Of a DNA stretch of 64,000 nucleotides, positions 17,702 through 24,037 are shown one piece after another. Every line of letters begins with the position of its first letter. The stretch's first letter is position 1. The stretch is taken from the NCBI GenBank assembly GCA_014695295.1, contig JACJNY010000061.1, positions 1-64,000 on the forward strand. Reading direction: 5' to 3'. The stretch is from Microcoleus sp. FACHB-61 (lineage in GTDB: Bacteria > Cyanobacteriota > Cyanobacteriia > Cyanobacteriales > Microcoleaceae). Position numbers and translations under genes: made by a program. The notes beneath the pieces are model-generated. The model did no database searches. It worked only from the letters and a program-made list of their open reading frames with translations, and was not told the DNA's origin.

Positions 17702-17775
17702 CAGTTGACCGTTGACTGTTGACTGTTGACGGTTAACTGTTGACGGTTAACTGTTGACGGTTAACTGTTGACTAA
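17702..17775. repeat. tandem GTTGAC/GTTAAC repeat array
   Basis: About five iterations of a 14-15 nt unit built from CTGTTGACGGTTAA between murA and the M48 peptidase gene. A related inverted form lies at 42426-42477. It is close to the downstream start codon (17791), so it forms part of that gene's leader. Confidence 0.85.
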
Positions 17776-17790
17776 GGAATAATAACTACA

Positions 17791-18660
17791 ATGTCGAACA
17801 TACCGCTCATCGGTTTGAAAGCAGACCAGTTTCGCCACCCGCTAGACTTGGAAGCTACCAGCACTCTCAAACAACTGCCCGGCCTGGATTTGATGGTGCG
17901 GCAGTTGCTGGGACAACTGGGCGAGCAGTTTTTCATGCTCGAAAATCTGGCTTCCAGCGTCCAAGTCGGCGAAAATCAATTGCCCCACCTGCATCAATTG
18001 CTGGTGGATGCCTGCAAAACTCTGGATTTAGAAGTGCCGCAGCTTTATGTGCGCCAGCATCCGATGCCGAATGCTTACACCTTTGCGATGCGGGGAAAAC
18101 AGCCTTTTGTGGTGATGCACACTTCTCTGATTGATTTGCTCACAGACGAGGAAGTTAAGGCAGTAATCGCTCACGAGTTGGGGCATTTGAAGTGCGAGCA
18201 CGGAGTTTACTTGACTCTGGCTAATTTAATTGTGTTGGCCGCCGGTCAAATTTCGCCTGTGGGAACCGTGCTGGTGCAGGGTTTGCAGGCGCAAATGTTG
18301 GAATGGTTGCGGTGTGCGGAATTTACGTGCGATCGCGCCGCCTTGCTCGCGACTCAAGACCCAAGAGTGGTAGCATCCGTGTTGATGAAACTGGCCGGAG
18401 GTTCGCCGACTTTAGCTCCGAAACTGAATGTCGATGCGTTTTTGGCGCAGGCGCGGGCCTACGACGACCTCAGCAGCACTCAACTCGGAGATATGCTCAA
18501 ACAAGCTCAGACAGCTCAGTTGTCCCACCCTGTACCAGTATTGCGCGCCAGAGAGATCGATCGCTGGGCAAGTTCAAAAGATTATGAATCTTTGCTTGCA
18601 GGAAATCGATCGGTGTGTTATGATGGTGAAACCCAAAAGGGCGGGTGGCGAAATTGGTAG
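17791..18660 (+). CDS. M48-family zinc metallopeptidase
   Basis: Peptidase_M48 (HtpX/Oma1-like) enzyme. Seen: HELGH zinc motif (IAHELGHLKCEHG, about residues 129-141) and, C-terminal to it, the third ligand region CAEFTCDRAAL with its glutamate; a hydrophobic stretch after HEXXH (TLANLIVLAAGQISP). 289 residues. Odd: its last 22 nt, including the TAG stop, overlap the 5' half of tRNA-Leu (stop within the D loop). The 3' part of this gene is repeated as a broken copy at 19975-20179. Conserved cyanobacterial gene; substrate unknown. Confidence 0.9.
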   Translation: MSNIPLIGLKADQFRHPLDLEATSTLKQLPGLDLMVRQLLGQLGEQFFMLENLASSVQVGENQLPHLHQLLVDACKTLDLEVPQLYVRQHPMPNAYTFAMRGKQPFVVMHTSLIDLLTDEEVKAVIAHELGHLKCEHGVYLTLANLIVLAAGQISPVGTVLVQGLQAQMLEWLRCAEFTCDRAALLATQDPRVVASVLMKLAGGSPTLAPKLNVDAFLAQARAYDDLSSTQLGDMLKQAQTAQLSHPVPVLRAREIDRWASSKDYESLLAGNRSVCYDGETQKGGWRNW

Positions 18661-18720
18661 ACGCATCAGACTCAAAATCTGACACCGAAAGGTATGAGAG
18701 TTCGATTCTCTCCCCGCCCA
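18639..18720 (+). tRNA. tRNA-Leu (anticodon CAA)
   Basis: 82 nt with a long variable arm. Seen: acceptor arms GGGCGGG/CCCGCCC with discriminator A, D stem GCG/CGC with AAATTGGTAGA loop, anticodon stem TCAGA/TCTGA around CTCAAAA (anticodon CAA, decodes UUG), class-II variable arm, and T stem GAGAG/CTCTC with loop TTCGATT. CCA is not encoded. Identical copy at 20197-20278. Confidence 0.95.
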
Positions 18721-18734
18721 CTGCTAAAAAAGCT
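18714..18734. repeat. left direct repeat (att-like) at the tRNA-Leu 3' end
   Basis: 21 bp, starting CCGCCCACTG, that includes the last six bases of the acceptor arm, the discriminator and 14 nt beyond. An exact copy occurs at 24017-24037. Direct repeats of a tRNA 3' end are the hallmark of site-specific integration; no integrase gene is seen between them. Confidence 0.6.
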
Positions 18735-18925
18735 AGTGATGTATTAATAAACAACTGTGGGCTAGGTAGTCCAGTAGCTCCAAGTGCATCTCTCATCACT
18801 TGATCTAGCCCTCTCTGGTGGCTGTGGTTCCTAGCCGAGTATTTTCCCAAATTCAGTTGAAATAACTGATGACCAATTGCACTATTACTTTTATCTGCTT
18901 TTTTATGTAATAAAAACAGAAAAAG

Positions 18926-19168
18926 ATGAGTAATAAGGCAAGCAATATATCTTCTTTGGATTTAGCTATGGTTTCAGGCACAGTTTATATCCAAGATTGT
19001 GTCTGGAATCAGTTAAGTAAACTGTATACTCTTGATTTAGCCACAGGTAAAGCAAGATTCATCGGTGAGCTCATTACAGAAGTGTATGATATTGCCTTTG
19101 GTGATTCACAACTCTATGGCATCGATCGAGAAGGCGGCACAACGCAGCTCGTAAAAATTGACATCTAA
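18926..19168 (+). pseudogene. truncated duplicate of the 1139-residue modular protein gene
   Basis: 80 codons that match the first 80 codons of the gene at 20484 at nearly every position (substitutions such as P to S and G to C), then a TAA where the intact copy has AAA (codon 81). Homology continues only about 20 nt further, to about 19190. The promoter region (18721-18925) is also duplicated (20279-20483). Possibly translated as a short head fragment, but most likely dead. Confidence 0.85.
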
Positions 19169-19342
19169 ACGGGCGATACGATTGTCATTAGACATCTCCG
19201 AAAACAATCAAAGCCTCTGTGTACTTAAGCTTTAGGACGTAAATTTAATCATCCTAAATTAGCTAGTGTGTACGATAAAACAAGACGTTGAGATATTTAT
19301 TGTTGATAATTAAGCCAAAATATTTAGTGAGCTGTGTTAATT

Positions 19343-19500
19343 TTAAGCTGACGCTCTCACCGCTTTTCCTAATGGTAATATTAGCGCTCCAATTCGCAAC
19401 CTTACTATTCCACAAATCGTTAAAATTACTTGCTCATATTTTTGGGGATTTAATCTAAATCTTTCTTGGGGAACTCGAAATATCTTGACCGTTCTAATTC
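19343..19500 (-). pseudogene. transposase C-terminal remnant (DDE_Tnp_4-like)
   Basis: Reverse-strand reading gives RIRTVKIFRV, then ERFRLNP, KYEQVILTICG and RLRIGALIL before a TAA complementary to 19343-19345. This is the ending I recognise from cyanobacterial DDE-superfamily 'transposase family' proteins. Only about 55 residues remain and no terminal inverted repeats are seen. It marks past transposition between the two duplicated segments. Confidence 0.6.
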
Positions 19501-19501
19501 G

Positions 19502-19807
19502 CTGACAAAAATTCGGCGAGCAGAAGCAGATGCGATCGATGTTGCGAGATCCTCTGGAATCGACTGTGACGGTACTCCGATTCCGAAAGCAAAATTAGAC
19601 CTCTACAAGCAAGTGATGGGATTAGAAGCCGGGAGACAGCGCAGTGGCGTGTCAAATACCATGCGATCGCGCATTGTCCGAATCGGTGTCAAAGATCTGC
19701 CTCAAAACGAGCTCGATAAAATGCTCGTTGCTGCTGACTTCGCACCACTGAAAGATGAGAAAGATGTTGCGTTTTATTACGAAAATAACAATGATCTACC
19801 CCTCTAG
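19502..19807 (+). CDS. hypothetical ORF (5' end uncertain, probably truncated)
   Basis: About 102 residues in an open frame (it extends to TTG at 19466, but that part overlaps the transposase remnant). Composition is protein-like: charged N-terminal helix, DGTPIPKAKLDLYKQ, then MRSRIVRIGVKDLPQNELD. No family recognised. It sits between the duplicated segments, so it is probably foreign cargo or debris. The region 19169-19342 and the rest of 19808-19974 show no further gene. Confidence 0.4.
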   Translation: MTKIRRAEADAIDVARSSGIDCDGTPIPKAKLDLYKQVMGLEAGRQRSGVSNTMRSRIVRIGVKDLPQNELDKMLVAADFAPLKDEKDVAFYYENNNDLPL

Positions 19808-19974
19808 ATAGATGAATAGTAATCCCAGGATATGTGAAGCTGGCCACAAATTCTAGCAGATGGTGAGTTTATAAGCACTAACGGAAATACCGTCATCAGC
19901 AACCTCGAGTATGATTTGTTAACAGTTTGGCAAAACAAGTCTAATAGCACATACCACATTAATTGGTTACCAAA

Positions 19975-20179
19975 AACTGAATGTAGATGCGTTTTTGGCG
20001 CAGGCGCGAGCCCCTACGACGACCTCAGCAGCACTCAACTCGGAGATATGCTCAAACAAGCTCAGACAGCTCAGTTGTCCCATCCTGTACCAGTATTGCG
20101 CGCCAGAGAGATCGATCGCTGGGCAAGTTCAAAAGATTATGAATCTTTGCTTGCAGGAAATCGATCTGTGTGTTATTAG
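19975..20179 (+). pseudogene. 3' fragment of the M48 peptidase gene (duplicate)
   Basis: Matches 18424-18620 almost base for base (LNVDAFLAQAR ... NRSVCY), but has a 2-nt insertion near 20012 that shifts frame and a stop TAG at 20177-20179, before the tRNA. Its left edge is fused to a short piece resembling the interior of the 1139-residue gene (about 19945-19974 versus 20928-20955), which identifies the join of a tandem duplication. Confidence 0.85.
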
Positions 20180-20196
20180 GGTGAAATCAAAACAAA

Positions 20197-20278
20197 GGGC
20201 GGGTGGCGAAATTGGTAGACGCATCAGACTCAAAATCTGACACCGAAAGGTATGAGAGTTCGATTCTCTCCCCGCCCA
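20197..20278 (+). tRNA. tRNA-Leu (CAA), second copy
   Basis: 82 nt, the same sequence as the tRNA at 18639-18720, with intact acceptor, D, anticodon, variable and T arms, so both copies should be functional. The flanks are duplicated too (M48 3' end before, about 205 nt leader after), but downstream bases diverge from the first copy inside the 21-bp att-like repeat (GCGAGGAAAG instead of GCTAAAAAAG). Confidence 0.93.
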
Positions 20279-20483
20279 CTGCGAGGAAAGCTAGTGATGT
20301 CTTAATAAAGCGCTCTGTGCTAAATAGCCAAGCAGCTCGAACTGCATCTCTAATCACTTTATCTCGCACTCGCTGGTGGCTCTCGTTGCTAGCCGAGTAT
20401 TTTCCCAAAATTAGTTGAAATAACTGATGACCAACCGCACTGTTACTTTCATCTGCTTTTTTATGTAATAAAAACAGAAAAAG

Positions 20484-23400
20484 ATGAGTAATCAGGCAAG
20501 CAATATACCTTCTTTGGATTTAGCTATGGTTCCAGGGACAGTGTATATCCAAGATGGTGTCTCAAATCAGTTAAGTAAACTGTATACTCTTGATTTAGCC
20601 ACAGGTAAAGCAACATTCATCGGTAAGCTCATTACAGAAATGTATGATATTGCCTTTGTTGATTCACAACTCTATGGCATTGATCGAGAAGGCGGCACAA
20701 CGCAGCTCGTAAAAATTGACATCAAAACGGGCGATGCGATGGTGATTGGGGATACGGGCTTTGCTACAGCCGGCTTGGCTTATAATGCCGAACGTCAAAC
20801 CCTTTATGCCAGCACAGCTAAACAACTGATTGCTCTCGATCTCAAAACAGGAAAAGGTACACCAGTAGCTACCGTAGCTAATAAAGACTACAACTGTGGC
20901 GAAGTTGCCTTTGATAGCAATGGCATAGCATATATCACATTAATTGGTTACCAAAAGAAGAAATTACTTGCTAGATGCAATCTCGATACTAGCGAAGTTA
21001 AAACTATTGGTGATACCGGATTTCCTGGTATTGGCAGTATGGAATTTGTTGGCAATGTCCTGTATGGCGTTACGGGCAGATTTTTTAACTTGGGTAAAGA
21101 CGGTCAATTAATCCGCATTAATACCAAGACAGGTAAGGGCACATTAGTTGCTCAAACCAAGCCTAGGGGTCGTTGGGCAGGAATTGCGGTTTATCAACCA
21201 GCAGCAGAAGGGATCGCAACCATCACTTCAACAGTTAAGACTGAAACTACACAAGCTCCACAAACAACTACTACAACTCGTGAGGAAACTATGCAACTGT
21301 TAACCATTGATACCAAAGAAAACTGTTACGTTATCAATACCGATCAGATGAATAACTTGCAACAAAATGTTGCTAAGTCTCTGACATTAGACAAAGGAAC
21401 TTTTGACATCCAAATTACCAGTGGTAGCTACAGTTATAGTGCTGACAATACCGTCGGTGAGCCTTTTGTTTTTCTCTGGATTTATGGACTTGATGGCAGT
21501 ACCTTTATCAACACAAAGACAGGTGTTGAGACAGGTGGAACTTGGGCAACTTTAAACGGCTATAACGACAAATTGCAGTTAGATATCAAAGAAAAAGCTG
21601 TAGTATGTGCTTTATTCTTTGATATCTATAGTGCTGATAATCAAGGACAAGTCACTGTTTCAATCACTGGCAATCAACAGAATCCCCAAACTTTAACCGT
21701 TGATAGCAAGACAAACTGCTATCCGCTTGATAGCAATTCTCTCTCAAATCTTAAAAAAGCCAATGCTAATTCTATCGAGTTAGCCCCAGGAAACTATCGC
21801 GTCAAGATTCGGGAAAGCAATGCCACTTATGGAGCAGAAGCAAAAAATTTCCAATTAGAACCTTGGGCGTTGCTCTTGATTCAAGGGGGAAAATTTATCT
21901 CCAAGTTGACAGGAAATGAAGTTAGCGAAAGTTGGTGTTCCTTAAATGGCTTCAAAGATGACGTTATTTTTGAAGTCAAAGAAAAAACAACCATCTCCGG
22001 CTTCTTTTTTGATACATACATAGAAGATAACCAAGGGCAAGTTGTTTTAGAAATCAACAACATCAGTGATCGAGAAGTAGACCAAGAAAAGGCACAGTCA
22101 TCAGTAACACCTGGTACGGGCAGCAGCGAAAGCACTGTTAGTGTAGTGGGTGGTGGTAGCGCAACTAGCTCTAGTAGTACAGCAGTTACCTCTGGTGGTG
22201 GTACAACTAGCTCTGGTCGTACACCAGTTACTACTGGTGGTACAACTAGCTCGGGTGGTGTATCAGTTACCACTGGTGGTACAACTAGCTCGGGTGGTGT
22301 ATCAGTTACCACTGGTGGTACAACTAGCTCGGGTGGTATACCAGTTACCACTGGTGGTACAACTAGCTCGGGGACTGAAAATGTCAATATTAGCACTGGA
22401 TTTAACTTCAGTTTTGACCAAGCTCAGATGGAACAAATGTGGCAGGAAATGGCCTCCCAAATCAATACTTCCATCACAGTAACAGGCGACCCGAACGAGA
22501 AAAAAGAAGCTTATTGGGACAACTTGGAAAAATGGCTGCTTAAAGGCTATCAAACTCAAGCTAAAGACTTAGGCATGAGGGTAGCACGGCTGGACTTTAT
22601 GTTTAAGACTCTTACCCAACAAATGGAAGTTAGTTTTAATCAGAATTTCCACAATTGGTCGGGGTACTTCAACAAAACTCTCAACGACTTATTTATTTCC
22701 CGAATCCCCCGCATTGTTAGTGAGCAGGTGAATTTAAGAATCTCTGAACAAACCCAAGAGATTAAAAACTTAGTTGTGCAACAAATGCAAACCGAGCTCA
22801 ATGAGCGTATTGAGTCCGTCGTTAATCTCAAAGTGTCTAATCAGACTCAAGAAGTTAAGAACCTCGTAGTTCAGCAAATGCAAACTGAACTTGAGCAACG
22901 GATTGAGAATGTAGTTAACATCAAAATTGCCAATCAGTCTACAGAGATTAATACCCAGGTAATTAATCAAATATCGACTGATATTGATGAGCGCATTAGT
23001 AACTCCGTTAATGTCCAAATCGCCAATCAATCTCAAGAGATCACTAATCAGGTAATTCAGCAAGTCCAACAAACTATTGATGAGCGTGTTGAGAATGTGG
23101 TGAGCATCAAGATTTCCGATCAAACCCAGAATGTGAAGAATCTGGTGATTCAGCAAATGCAAACTTACATCGATCAACGCATCGATAATGTCGTGAACCT
23201 CAAAGTGTCTAATCTATCTCACGATATTAACACTCAAATTGTTCAGCAAATTCAACACGACATGGATCAGCGGATTAATGCGGTAGTTAATCTCAAAATT
23301 GCTGACCAAAGCCAACACATTAAAAATCTGGTCATTCAGCAGATTGAATCTAACATTGATGAACGCATCAGTACGGTTGTTAATCAATCTAGCACTAGCA

Positions 23401-23903
23401 ACGTGCAGCTAGTGACTAATAATATTGTCAACGATCTTGACAATCGCATTAATGTTAGCTTGGATAACAAGATTCTCAACTTCCGTAATGATGTCTCTAC
23501 ACTCGTCAAAAATGAGCTGAACCAAAACTTCACGCAGAACCTCAAAAATACGATTTTTTCAGAATTGAGACAGCAACAATTCTACCTGGATATGAACTTG
23601 ATCAAATCAGAAGTTGAGAACTTCTACTCTAATCTTGCACAGTTTGAGAATCAGTTCTATTTACGCATTGAACAAGGGGACACTCAACTGTATAACTGGA
23701 CGCTGGAACAACTTATTGCTCTCCAAGGTTGCTTAACAGATCGTCAGGCTTTAGGGGATATCTTTGAATCTTTCGCCAAGAGACTCAAAGACGAATTAGA
23801 GAATGCTGAATGCGTTCGTCCCGATCGTTTTGGTTCTTGGGTAAGAACAGATATGCGGTCACAATTTCAACCTTCGCAATCTCCGGAATTACCACAAGGT
23901 TAA
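20484..23903 (+). CDS. 1139-residue modular repeat protein (propeller-like head, linker, 31-residue repeats)
   Basis: No known family recognised as a whole. Seen in order: residues 1-250, blades with YTLDLATGK, LIALDLKTGK and LIRINTKTGK motifs, like a small beta-propeller; about 265-390 and 393-530, two copies of one roughly 125-residue domain (NCYVIN.. / NCYPLD.., each ending with FFDxYxxDNQGQV); 550-630, a T/S/G linker with four 13-residue repeats (22200-22355) and a partial fifth; 630-745, a mixed region; 748-964, seven tandem 31-residue repeats (22725-23375) with core NLxVQQMQ...RI; 965-1139, a helical tail. No signal peptide visible. It could be a surface, sheath or fibre protein. It lies inside the tRNA-Leu-flanked island and follows a duplicated promoter region. 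Confidence 0.8.
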   Translation: MSNQASNIPSLDLAMVPGTVYIQDGVSNQLSKLYTLDLATGKATFIGKLITEMYDIAFVDSQLYGIDREGGTTQLVKIDIKTGDAMVIGDTGFATAGLAYNAERQTLYASTAKQLIALDLKTGKGTPVATVANKDYNCGEVAFDSNGIAYITLIGYQKKKLLARCNLDTSEVKTIGDTGFPGIGSMEFVGNVLYGVTGRFFNLGKDGQLIRINTKTGKGTLVAQTKPRGRWAGIAVYQPAAEGIATITSTVKTETTQAPQTTTTTREETMQLLTIDTKENCYVINTDQMNNLQQNVAKSLTLDKGTFDIQITSGSYSYSADNTVGEPFVFLWIYGLDGSTFINTKTGVETGGTWATLNGYNDKLQLDIKEKAVVCALFFDIYSADNQGQVTVSITGNQQNPQTLTVDSKTNCYPLDSNSLSNLKKANANSIELAPGNYRVKIRESNATYGAEAKNFQLEPWALLLIQGGKFISKLTGNEVSESWCSLNGFKDDVIFEVKEKTTISGFFFDTYIEDNQGQVVLEINNISDREVDQEKAQSSVTPGTGSSESTVSVVGGGSATSSSSTAVTSGGGTTSSGRTPVTTGGTTSSGGVSVTTGGTTSSGGVSVTTGGTTSSGGIPVTTGGTTSSGTENVNISTGFNFSFDQAQMEQMWQEMASQINTSITVTGDPNEKKEAYWDNLEKWLLKGYQTQAKDLGMRVARLDFMFKTLTQQMEVSFNQNFHNWSGYFNKTLNDLFISRIPRIVSEQVNLRISEQTQEIKNLVVQQMQTELNERIESVVNLKVSNQTQEVKNLVVQQMQTELEQRIENVVNIKIANQSTEINTQVINQISTDIDERISNSVNVQIANQSQEITNQVIQQVQQTIDERVENVVSIKISDQTQNVKNLVIQQMQTYIDQRIDNVVNLKVSNLSHDINTQIVQQIQHDMDQRINAVVNLKIADQSQHIKNLVIQQIESNIDERISTVVNQSSTSNVQLVTNNIVNDLDNRINVSLDNKILNFRNDVSTLVKNELNQNFTQNLKNTIFSELRQQQFYLDMNLIKSEVENFYSNLAQFENQFYLRIEQGDTQLYNWTLEQLIALQGCLTDRQALGDIFESFAKRLKDELENAECVRPDRFGSWVRTDMRSQFQPSQSPELPQG
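22200..22373 (+). repeat. 39-bp tandem repeats encoding a T/S/G linker
   Basis: Four units of 39 bp (13 codons, GTTSSGGVSVTTG-like) plus a partial fifth, with a degenerate version just upstream (22146-22199). Two central units are identical at the DNA level, which suggests recent expansion and possible length variation between strains. Confidence 0.9.
22725..23375 (+). repeat. seven 93-bp tandem repeats encoding 31-residue units
   Basis: Each unit is exactly 93 bp and reads like VVNLKVSNQTQEVKNLVVQQ, then M/I-Q, a short acidic segment and RI(E/D/S)N. Units differ at many synonymous and conservative sites, so the array is old and its length is held constant. Alternating beta-like and amphipathic helical halves suggest a fibrous or trimeric stalk. 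Confidence 0.9.
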
Positions 23904-24016: not shown

Positions 24017-24037
24017 CCGCCCACTGCTAAAAAAGCT
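24017..24037. repeat. right direct repeat (att-like)
   Basis: Exact 21-bp copy of 18714-18734 (tRNA-Leu acceptor 3' end plus flank), without the rest of a tRNA. Together with the left copy it brackets 5.3 kb. Excision would leave one intact tRNA-Leu and a single repeat. A 9-bp stem-loop (24047-24077) follows. Confidence 0.6.

Follow-up and report, generated by a model that had tools for sequence, protein, structure and literature searches.

The closest described counterparts of the stalk considered here are right-handed coiled coils of the YadA type. A straight helix has 3.63 residues per turn, the expected upper limit for a coiled coil is about 3.9, and YadA, which locally reaches 3.8, is the most extreme known case according to the available part of PMC4786415. 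The cyanobacterial filament proteins rich in coiled coils (Fm7001 among others; excerpt of PMC7002697) are likewise helical-repeat proteins, and in Nostoc punctiforme a dioxygenase yields a 10(S)-hydroperoxide, which a catalase-like protein cleaves to 1-octen-3-ol (excerpt of PMC9579011). We analysed a 64,000-nucleotide stretch of Microcoleus sp. FACHB-61 (contig JACJNY010000061.1, positions 1 to 64,000 of the forward strand), hereafter the window, and within it a gene for a modular protein with a propeller-like head, twin domains and a repetitive stalk. We propose, with a probability of roughly 0.42, that the proteins of this family act as oligomeric scaffolds with head and stalk, located in the cytoplasm at the face of the membrane.

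Architecture of the head-and-stalk protein

The gene and its modules are as follows.

20484..23903, + strand: complete open reading frame (ORF) of the Microcoleus window, head-and-stalk protein, 1139 aa
20520..21203, + strand: predicted beta-propeller head, residues ~13-240, DUF4394/YncE-like (structure model, fold search)
21294..21671, + strand: twin domain copy 1, residues 271-396, predicted beta-sandwich; best VIA match a LecA-like lectin
21687..22064, + strand: twin domain copy 2, residues 402-527, predicted beta-sandwich
22104..22418, + strand: T/S/G-rich linker, residues 541-645, 13-residue repeats, low confidence in the model
22196-22372, inside the linker: 39-bp array found by TRF (Tandem Repeats Finder), coding the 13-residue repeats
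22419..22715, + strand: conserved helical pre-stalk block, residues 646-744 (alignment and model)
22716..23366, + strand: seven 31-residue stalk units, residues 745-961, in exact 93-bp register
23367..23900, + strand: C-terminal helical block, residues 962-1139 (alignment)

The first-pass annotation of the window had described a head, twin domains of about 125 residues, a linker of 13-residue repeats and 7 x 31-residue units at 93-bp spacing, and all of these are found where it placed them. It had also seen no signal peptide and could name no full-length family. Both statements hold: a hydrophobic-segment scan of the window protein found no signal peptide, membrane helix or any hydrophobic segment, and the ORF has no Pfam model at cut-off, nothing close to cut-off in the NCBIfam scan, and no sequence match in the PDB at E ≤ 1. 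The only PDB matches of a window profile are to V-type ATPase subunit E (E 0.009 and 0.028). Structure prediction, to which the annotation had pointed, gives a propeller and beta-sandwiches, with low confidence for linker and stalk in what is a monomer model; the C-terminus is a helix, also at low confidence.

The window repeat is far beyond chance, because its lag-31 identity is 0.49, compared with at most 0.20 in 2000 shuffles. The hydrophobic period of the stalk is 3.87 (31/8), with a power of 7.5 versus at most 2.6 in 1000 shuffles, a regular hydrophobic periodicity as expected of a coiled coil. Periods and units were also determined in the best 120 of 296 relatives (the window protein included), of which 114 contain YNWT and six were dropped. 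In these 114 proteins, many of them close relatives, the top hydrophobic period is 3.87-3.88 in 104 and 3.75-3.86 in the remaining ten, exactly seven units are present in 85 (range 4-14), and 700 of 720 unit spacings are 31. A second stalk subtype (L043, L045, L046, L060, L062) does not show the 3.87 period, its periods being spread from 3.54 to 4.17.

Like the YadA stalk, the window stalk has a periodicity above the straight-helix value (PMC4786415, available part). It differs in that 31/8 = 3.87 extends across seven units and in that no signal peptide or barrel anchor is seen; the signal peptide and C-terminal membrane barrel of a trimeric autotransporter adhesin are absent from the window protein. 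A sustained 3.87 (31/8 = 3.875) would surpass the extreme of 3.8 cited in that part of PMC4786415. Alternatively, the stalk could be an alpha/beta fibre. A V-x-L-x-I alternation at unit positions 5-9, where the helix of the model is interrupted in three of the seven units, may form a beta-layer as in the alpha/beta coiled coils of PMC4786415 (same excerpt).

The head has a propeller fold in the predicted structure, resembling the DUF4394/YncE/kelch-like beta-propellers. Among seven relatives scanned, P0117 alone exceeds the Pfam cut-offs, for DUF4394 (36.9 bits, cut-off 29.6) and DUF6923. The window ORF has no match above cut-off, and a degenerate truncated copy of the gene in the window scores 17.7 bits for DUF4394 against the same cut-off of 29.6. 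A further difference from these propellers is the fusion to twin domains and a stalk. The two twin copies are predicted beta-sandwiches of 125 residues, 36% identical to each other. The best VIA match of the twin domain model is the N-terminal domain of LecA-like EclA (6ygq), at 17% identity, and cupin/vicilin-type and other sandwiches lead its Foldseek ranking (best E 2e-4). PA-IL, which we take to be the Pfam name of the LecA lectin family, gives no match in 17 single-domain members at E ≤ 1 and is not among 25 of the 26 families listed for 33 members at E ≤ 0.1; tandem copies joined to a stalk are another difference from these lectins. Twin profiles have at most chance-level sequence matches in the PDB.

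Relative to six Microcoleus copies (the sequences of L175 and L031 being identical), omega is 0.21-0.42 for the propeller and twin domains, 0.20-1.13 for the pre-stalk, repeats and C-terminus, and 0.75-2.82 for the linker, where the alignment is unreliable. The best-conserved 20-residue block in a 21-sequence alignment is residues 1061-1080 (0.92).

Relatives and cellular location

The window protein is not an orphan: 296 relatives were found at E ≤ 0.001, and the named organisms among the best 120 of these are all cyanobacteria, except for P0118, from a metagenome-assembled genome labelled Candidatus Obscuribacterales. The distribution of the family among cyanobacteria is patchy. The C-terminal module occurs in 7/386 genomes of the phylum, in one of which (G183) it is broken by stops, and the twin domain, at E ≤ 1e-10, in 50/388 genomes of the order, with scores above 300 bits in 34. 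Three forms are found, namely vWA-propeller-twin-stalk, propeller-twin-stalk (the window) and twin-stalk. The modules also occur apart: vWA, propeller and twin are three separate genes in L066, L064 and L065 have one gene for the head and another for the twin, and a vWA gene stands apart from a twin-stalk gene in L162. The split-module genes of L065, L066 and L067 have a common tail, TP[VI]R[TS].VRREEE. Judged from these sequences, the N-terminal modules (vWA, propeller, twin) are interchangeable in the family.

Two side observations concern gene organisation. In one genome (G013; L174, G013:C1:136000-151000), the gene is split, one part coding for residues 1-151 (including a stop) and the other, about 2.5 kb away, for 150-1139. 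In a sister system (L164, L165, L167-L171), a single-domain protein of 127-131 aa adjoins a large protein that carries this domain at its end; the large proteins of L164 and L165 contain Pfam PBP_like_2 and DUF4912 repeats.

A search of the accessible literature, which included the 31-residue repeat and DUF2235/vWA/lectin/cyclooxygenase combinations, turned up no paper describing the family, and this head-and-stalk family is apparently undescribed so far. The Fm7001-type filament proteins were compared by description rather than by sequence, and the available text of PMC7002697 contains neither 'propeller' nor 'von Willebrand'. The FtsZl1/vWA membrane-remodelling system was considered and rejected, since the vWA theme is the sole common point in the accessible part of PMC2875224.

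Evidence on location comes from membrane-anchored homologues. Among the best 120 relatives, P0102 alone has a hydrophobic segment, at its start. The stalk and C-terminus of a protein with a transmembrane (TM) anchor (L045 15232-16692) were found in 41 proteins. In 18 of these, R/K-rich residues follow an internal TM, and 16 of the 18 have a further hydrophobic segment at the N-terminus; the other 23, many of which are fragments, have no internal TM. Eight of the 41 contain a PstS-like PBP_like_2 domain, so some ectodomains are PstS-like. Basic residues flanking a TM mark its cytoplasmic side (the positive-inside rule). Because the homologues combine a signal peptide, a TM and R/K-rich residues, this rule places the stalk in the cytoplasm. 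One frame (L057 9320-14707) runs from a signal peptide and TM through TPR-like repeats (by eye) and a propeller to the start of a twin domain, where the contig end cuts it. Among the vWA-form ORFs of the loci, 13/16 have a hydrophobic-basic N-terminus such as MKLFGFNQKKKK (by eye). The C-termini of TM stalks and soluble stalks are about 69-70% identical in L044/L045 and 60% in L042, where the TM stalk also resembles four further soluble stalks at 52-56%.

Proposed scaffold and the weight of its alternatives

In the scaffold that we propose, the 31-residue units would let the chains wind into a right-handed coiled coil, made up of seven units in most of the best 120 relatives. The conserved C-terminal block may be the assembly or docking end, and the propeller and twin domains, on a flexible linker, may bind partners or glycolipid-like ligands. 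In other species, TM-anchored stalks or basic N-terminal peptides would tether the assembly. Our guess, from the neighbours of a minority of relatives, is that the scaffold might serve a Tle1-like hydrolase, a class-3 lipase, a cyclooxygenase (COX)-like dioxygenase and a catalase-like lyase, possibly as part of a system for membrane damage or of the oxylipin type.

For the neighbourhood comparison, 79 loci were reduced to 51 groups by merging near-identical ones and set against 20 control regions from six genomes. The enzyme set comprised DUF2235/Tle1-like hydrolase, class-3 lipase, PhoD, COX-like peroxidase, catalase-like and endonuclease/phosphatase genes within about 10 kb. At least one such gene is present in 11/39 groups with propeller, vWA or stalk versus 0/20 controls (Fisher p 0.011), a contrast inflated by the choice of enzyme exemplars from the test loci; none occurs in the 12 twin-only groups. 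The neighbouring peroxidase is a homologue of prostaglandin G/H synthase (residues 18-531, E 1.5e-66), and the catalase-like protein matches Pfam Catalase, with no PDB match at 1e-3. In L045 and L162, same-strand runs lead from vWA/twin/stalk genes to the hydrolase, dioxygenase and catalase-like genes. In six COX-like loci away from the family, the hydrolase/COX-like/catalase-like run recurs in five (L208 has no hydrolase), one of which is a three-gene run of DUF2235, COX-like and catalase-like genes in the window genome (L207 7864-12022, G000:C15).

These dioxygenase and catalase-like neighbours of some relatives resemble the Nostoc punctiforme pair, and by analogy we infer that they may act in the same way; the available text of PMC9579011 does not mention the scaffold family. 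Within Microcoleus, a COX-like match is present in 7/7 genomes with the gene at the tRNA site described below and in 4/22 others (p 2e-4), and outside the genus the COX-like counts are 7/26 versus 38/333 (p 0.03), both p values ignoring relatedness among genomes. The lipid-enzyme link is a guess from gene context and applies to fewer than one-third of groups. A fuller version of the scaffold proposal seems doubtful to us: that in filamentous cyanobacteria it would be the scaffold of a lipid-damage/oxylipin machine and bring together at the membrane a phospholipase-like hydrolase, a cyclooxygenase-like dioxygenase and a catalase-like lyase, via a length-fixed stalk that would be more strongly right-handed than any known coiled coil (31 residues/8 turns). 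As separate observations, the COX-like gene lies in an open frame of 905-951 aa in G026, G030, G032, G033, G035 and G038, a length that would leave room for a fusion with the catalase-like protein, and genes for an AAA_35 ATPase and a pentapeptide-repeat protein form a divergent pair found repeatedly upstream, beside vWA-form genes, in L046, L047, L052, L055 and L064.

Besides the inflated contrast and uncorrected p values, a number of findings weigh against the scaffold proposal. The oligomeric state and handedness are inferred, and the stalk has a pLDDT (predicted local distance difference test) below 50 in the monomer. By a numerical rule, a hydrophobic-basic N-terminus is found in only 5/26 vWA-class database proteins and in 13/120 overall (the best 120 relatives). 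The window protein has neither a vWA domain nor such an N-terminus, a search of its genome found no second stalk protein, and a vWA search of that genome was empty, with a positive control lacking. In L061 and L053 the TM stalk belongs to another subtype than the soluble stalk, at about 29-30% identity; for this reason, co-variation of C-termini as proof of a TM/soluble stalk partnership was dropped. No enzyme-set gene neighbours the window gene, and 28/39 groups have none in the DNA examined, in which some contigs end early. Thioredoxin genes (5/51 groups versus 1/20 controls) and pentapeptide genes (6/51 versus 1/20), other neighbours of the family, are found in controls too. Of 56/388 genomes with a COX-like gene, 14 have a strong twin match and 42 have none. 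Finally, G031, with the short form, has no COX-like match, and G037 matches just the 3' half of the COX-like gene.

The strongest rival to the scaffold, although not a probable one, is a role as a membrane receptor in signal transduction, in which a PstS-like/linker ectodomain would sense the outside, the stalk would relay to cytoplasmic propeller and lectin-like heads, and vWA or downstream enzymes would respond. Next to the main gene, L061 and L053 carry genes for PstS-like + TM + stalk proteins, and PstS-like-TM-DUF4912-twin proteins of the sister system stand beside its 131-aa single-domain protein; however, a TM partner is present in only some loci, and none was detected in the window genome. 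It is improbable that the protein is a surface or sheath fibre or an adhesin, exported non-classically, whose propeller and lectin-like heads bind polysaccharide. The first-pass annotation was right about the fibre-like anatomy of head, hinge and stalk, but the fibre or sheath role that it drew from this is a poorer fit than a cytoplasmic scaffold: the absence of a signal peptide and the homologues that place the stalk in the cytoplasm argue against it, and the latter support its 'intracellular' option.

Insertion at tRNA-Leu

The annotation had also put the gene within a tRNA-flanked block, and this is borne out by the following features.

18639..18721, + strand: tRNA-Leu(caa), apparent insertion site
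18714..18734, + strand: left direct repeat CCGCCCACTGCTAAAAAAGCT (21 bp), overlapping the tRNA-Leu(caa) 3' end
18926..19192, + strand: degenerate copy of the gene's first 89 codons, 85% identity, one stop
19466..19807, + strand: DUF4090 / ssr1528-family gene within the insertion, an NsiR4-regulated family by its NCBIfam name
19994..20215, + strand: duplicated HtpX-like 3' end (residues 217-289), 90% identity
20197..20279, + strand: second tRNA-Leu(caa), within the insertion
24017..24037, + strand: right direct repeat CCGCCCACTGCTAAAAAAGCT, followed by the post-tRNA sequence of the empty-site genome L083

The window gene is carried as cargo on an insertion of 5.3 kb that is framed by a 21-bp repeat of the 3' end of tRNA-Leu, with 5303 bp between the two copies. 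As expected of a tRNA-integrated island, direct repeats flank it and a relative (L083) has the site unoccupied. Among 29 Microcoleus loci, the gene is present at the tRNA-Leu site in 7; in 12, HtpX-tRNA-Leu is followed by EamA within about 450 bases and no part of the head-and-stalk gene lies between them, and the remaining 10 are cut short or have other downstream DNA. By one strict pattern, the right repeat was found in L031/L175 (one record) and not in L172, L173, L174, L040 and L032, where the right boundary is putative.

Within window 18430-20745, the HtpX-like 3' end, tRNA-Leu and gene start are duplicated, and a head-gene-like scrap joined to HtpX-like 3' sequence at ~19935-19975 is the likely duplication breakpoint (by eye). 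A GTTGACT/GTTAACT heptamer tandem array lies between the MurA and HtpX-like genes (17704-17773).

The insertion, its presence in these Microcoleus genomes and an excess of AAA_35 neighbours (8/51 groups versus 0/20 controls) would suit an accessory or defence-like cargo, such as an anti-phage or post-lysis alarm protein. We nevertheless give this only a slim chance, since the gene stands in varied contexts elsewhere, PADLOC gave no match in the six proteins scanned, and no integrase was recognised by eye among the insertion ORFs (no integrase profile was run). A phage-tail-like or contractile-injection fibre, the annotation's other suggestion, is unlikely in the extreme: the fibre-like plan and weak SPP1_Dit matches of the twin region (20/33 members at E ≤ 0.1, best 1.5e-6) speak for it, but the window ORF has just three weak PHROGs matches at E ≤ 1, all of unknown function and none to phage structural families (best E 0.0017), no phage structural gene was recognised by eye in the loci, in which not every ORF is annotated, and the stalk has TM-anchored homologues.

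The window gene thus belongs to a modular and apparently undescribed cyanobacterial family, the parts of which are exchanged as genes and fusions. Its stalk offers a direct test of the limit on right-handedness in coiled coils, at 31/8 = 3.875 compared with a limit of ~3.9 and an extreme of 3.8 (available part of PMC4786415), and the family provides a genomic lead to a possible organisation of the cyclooxygenase-like enzymes of cyanobacteria.

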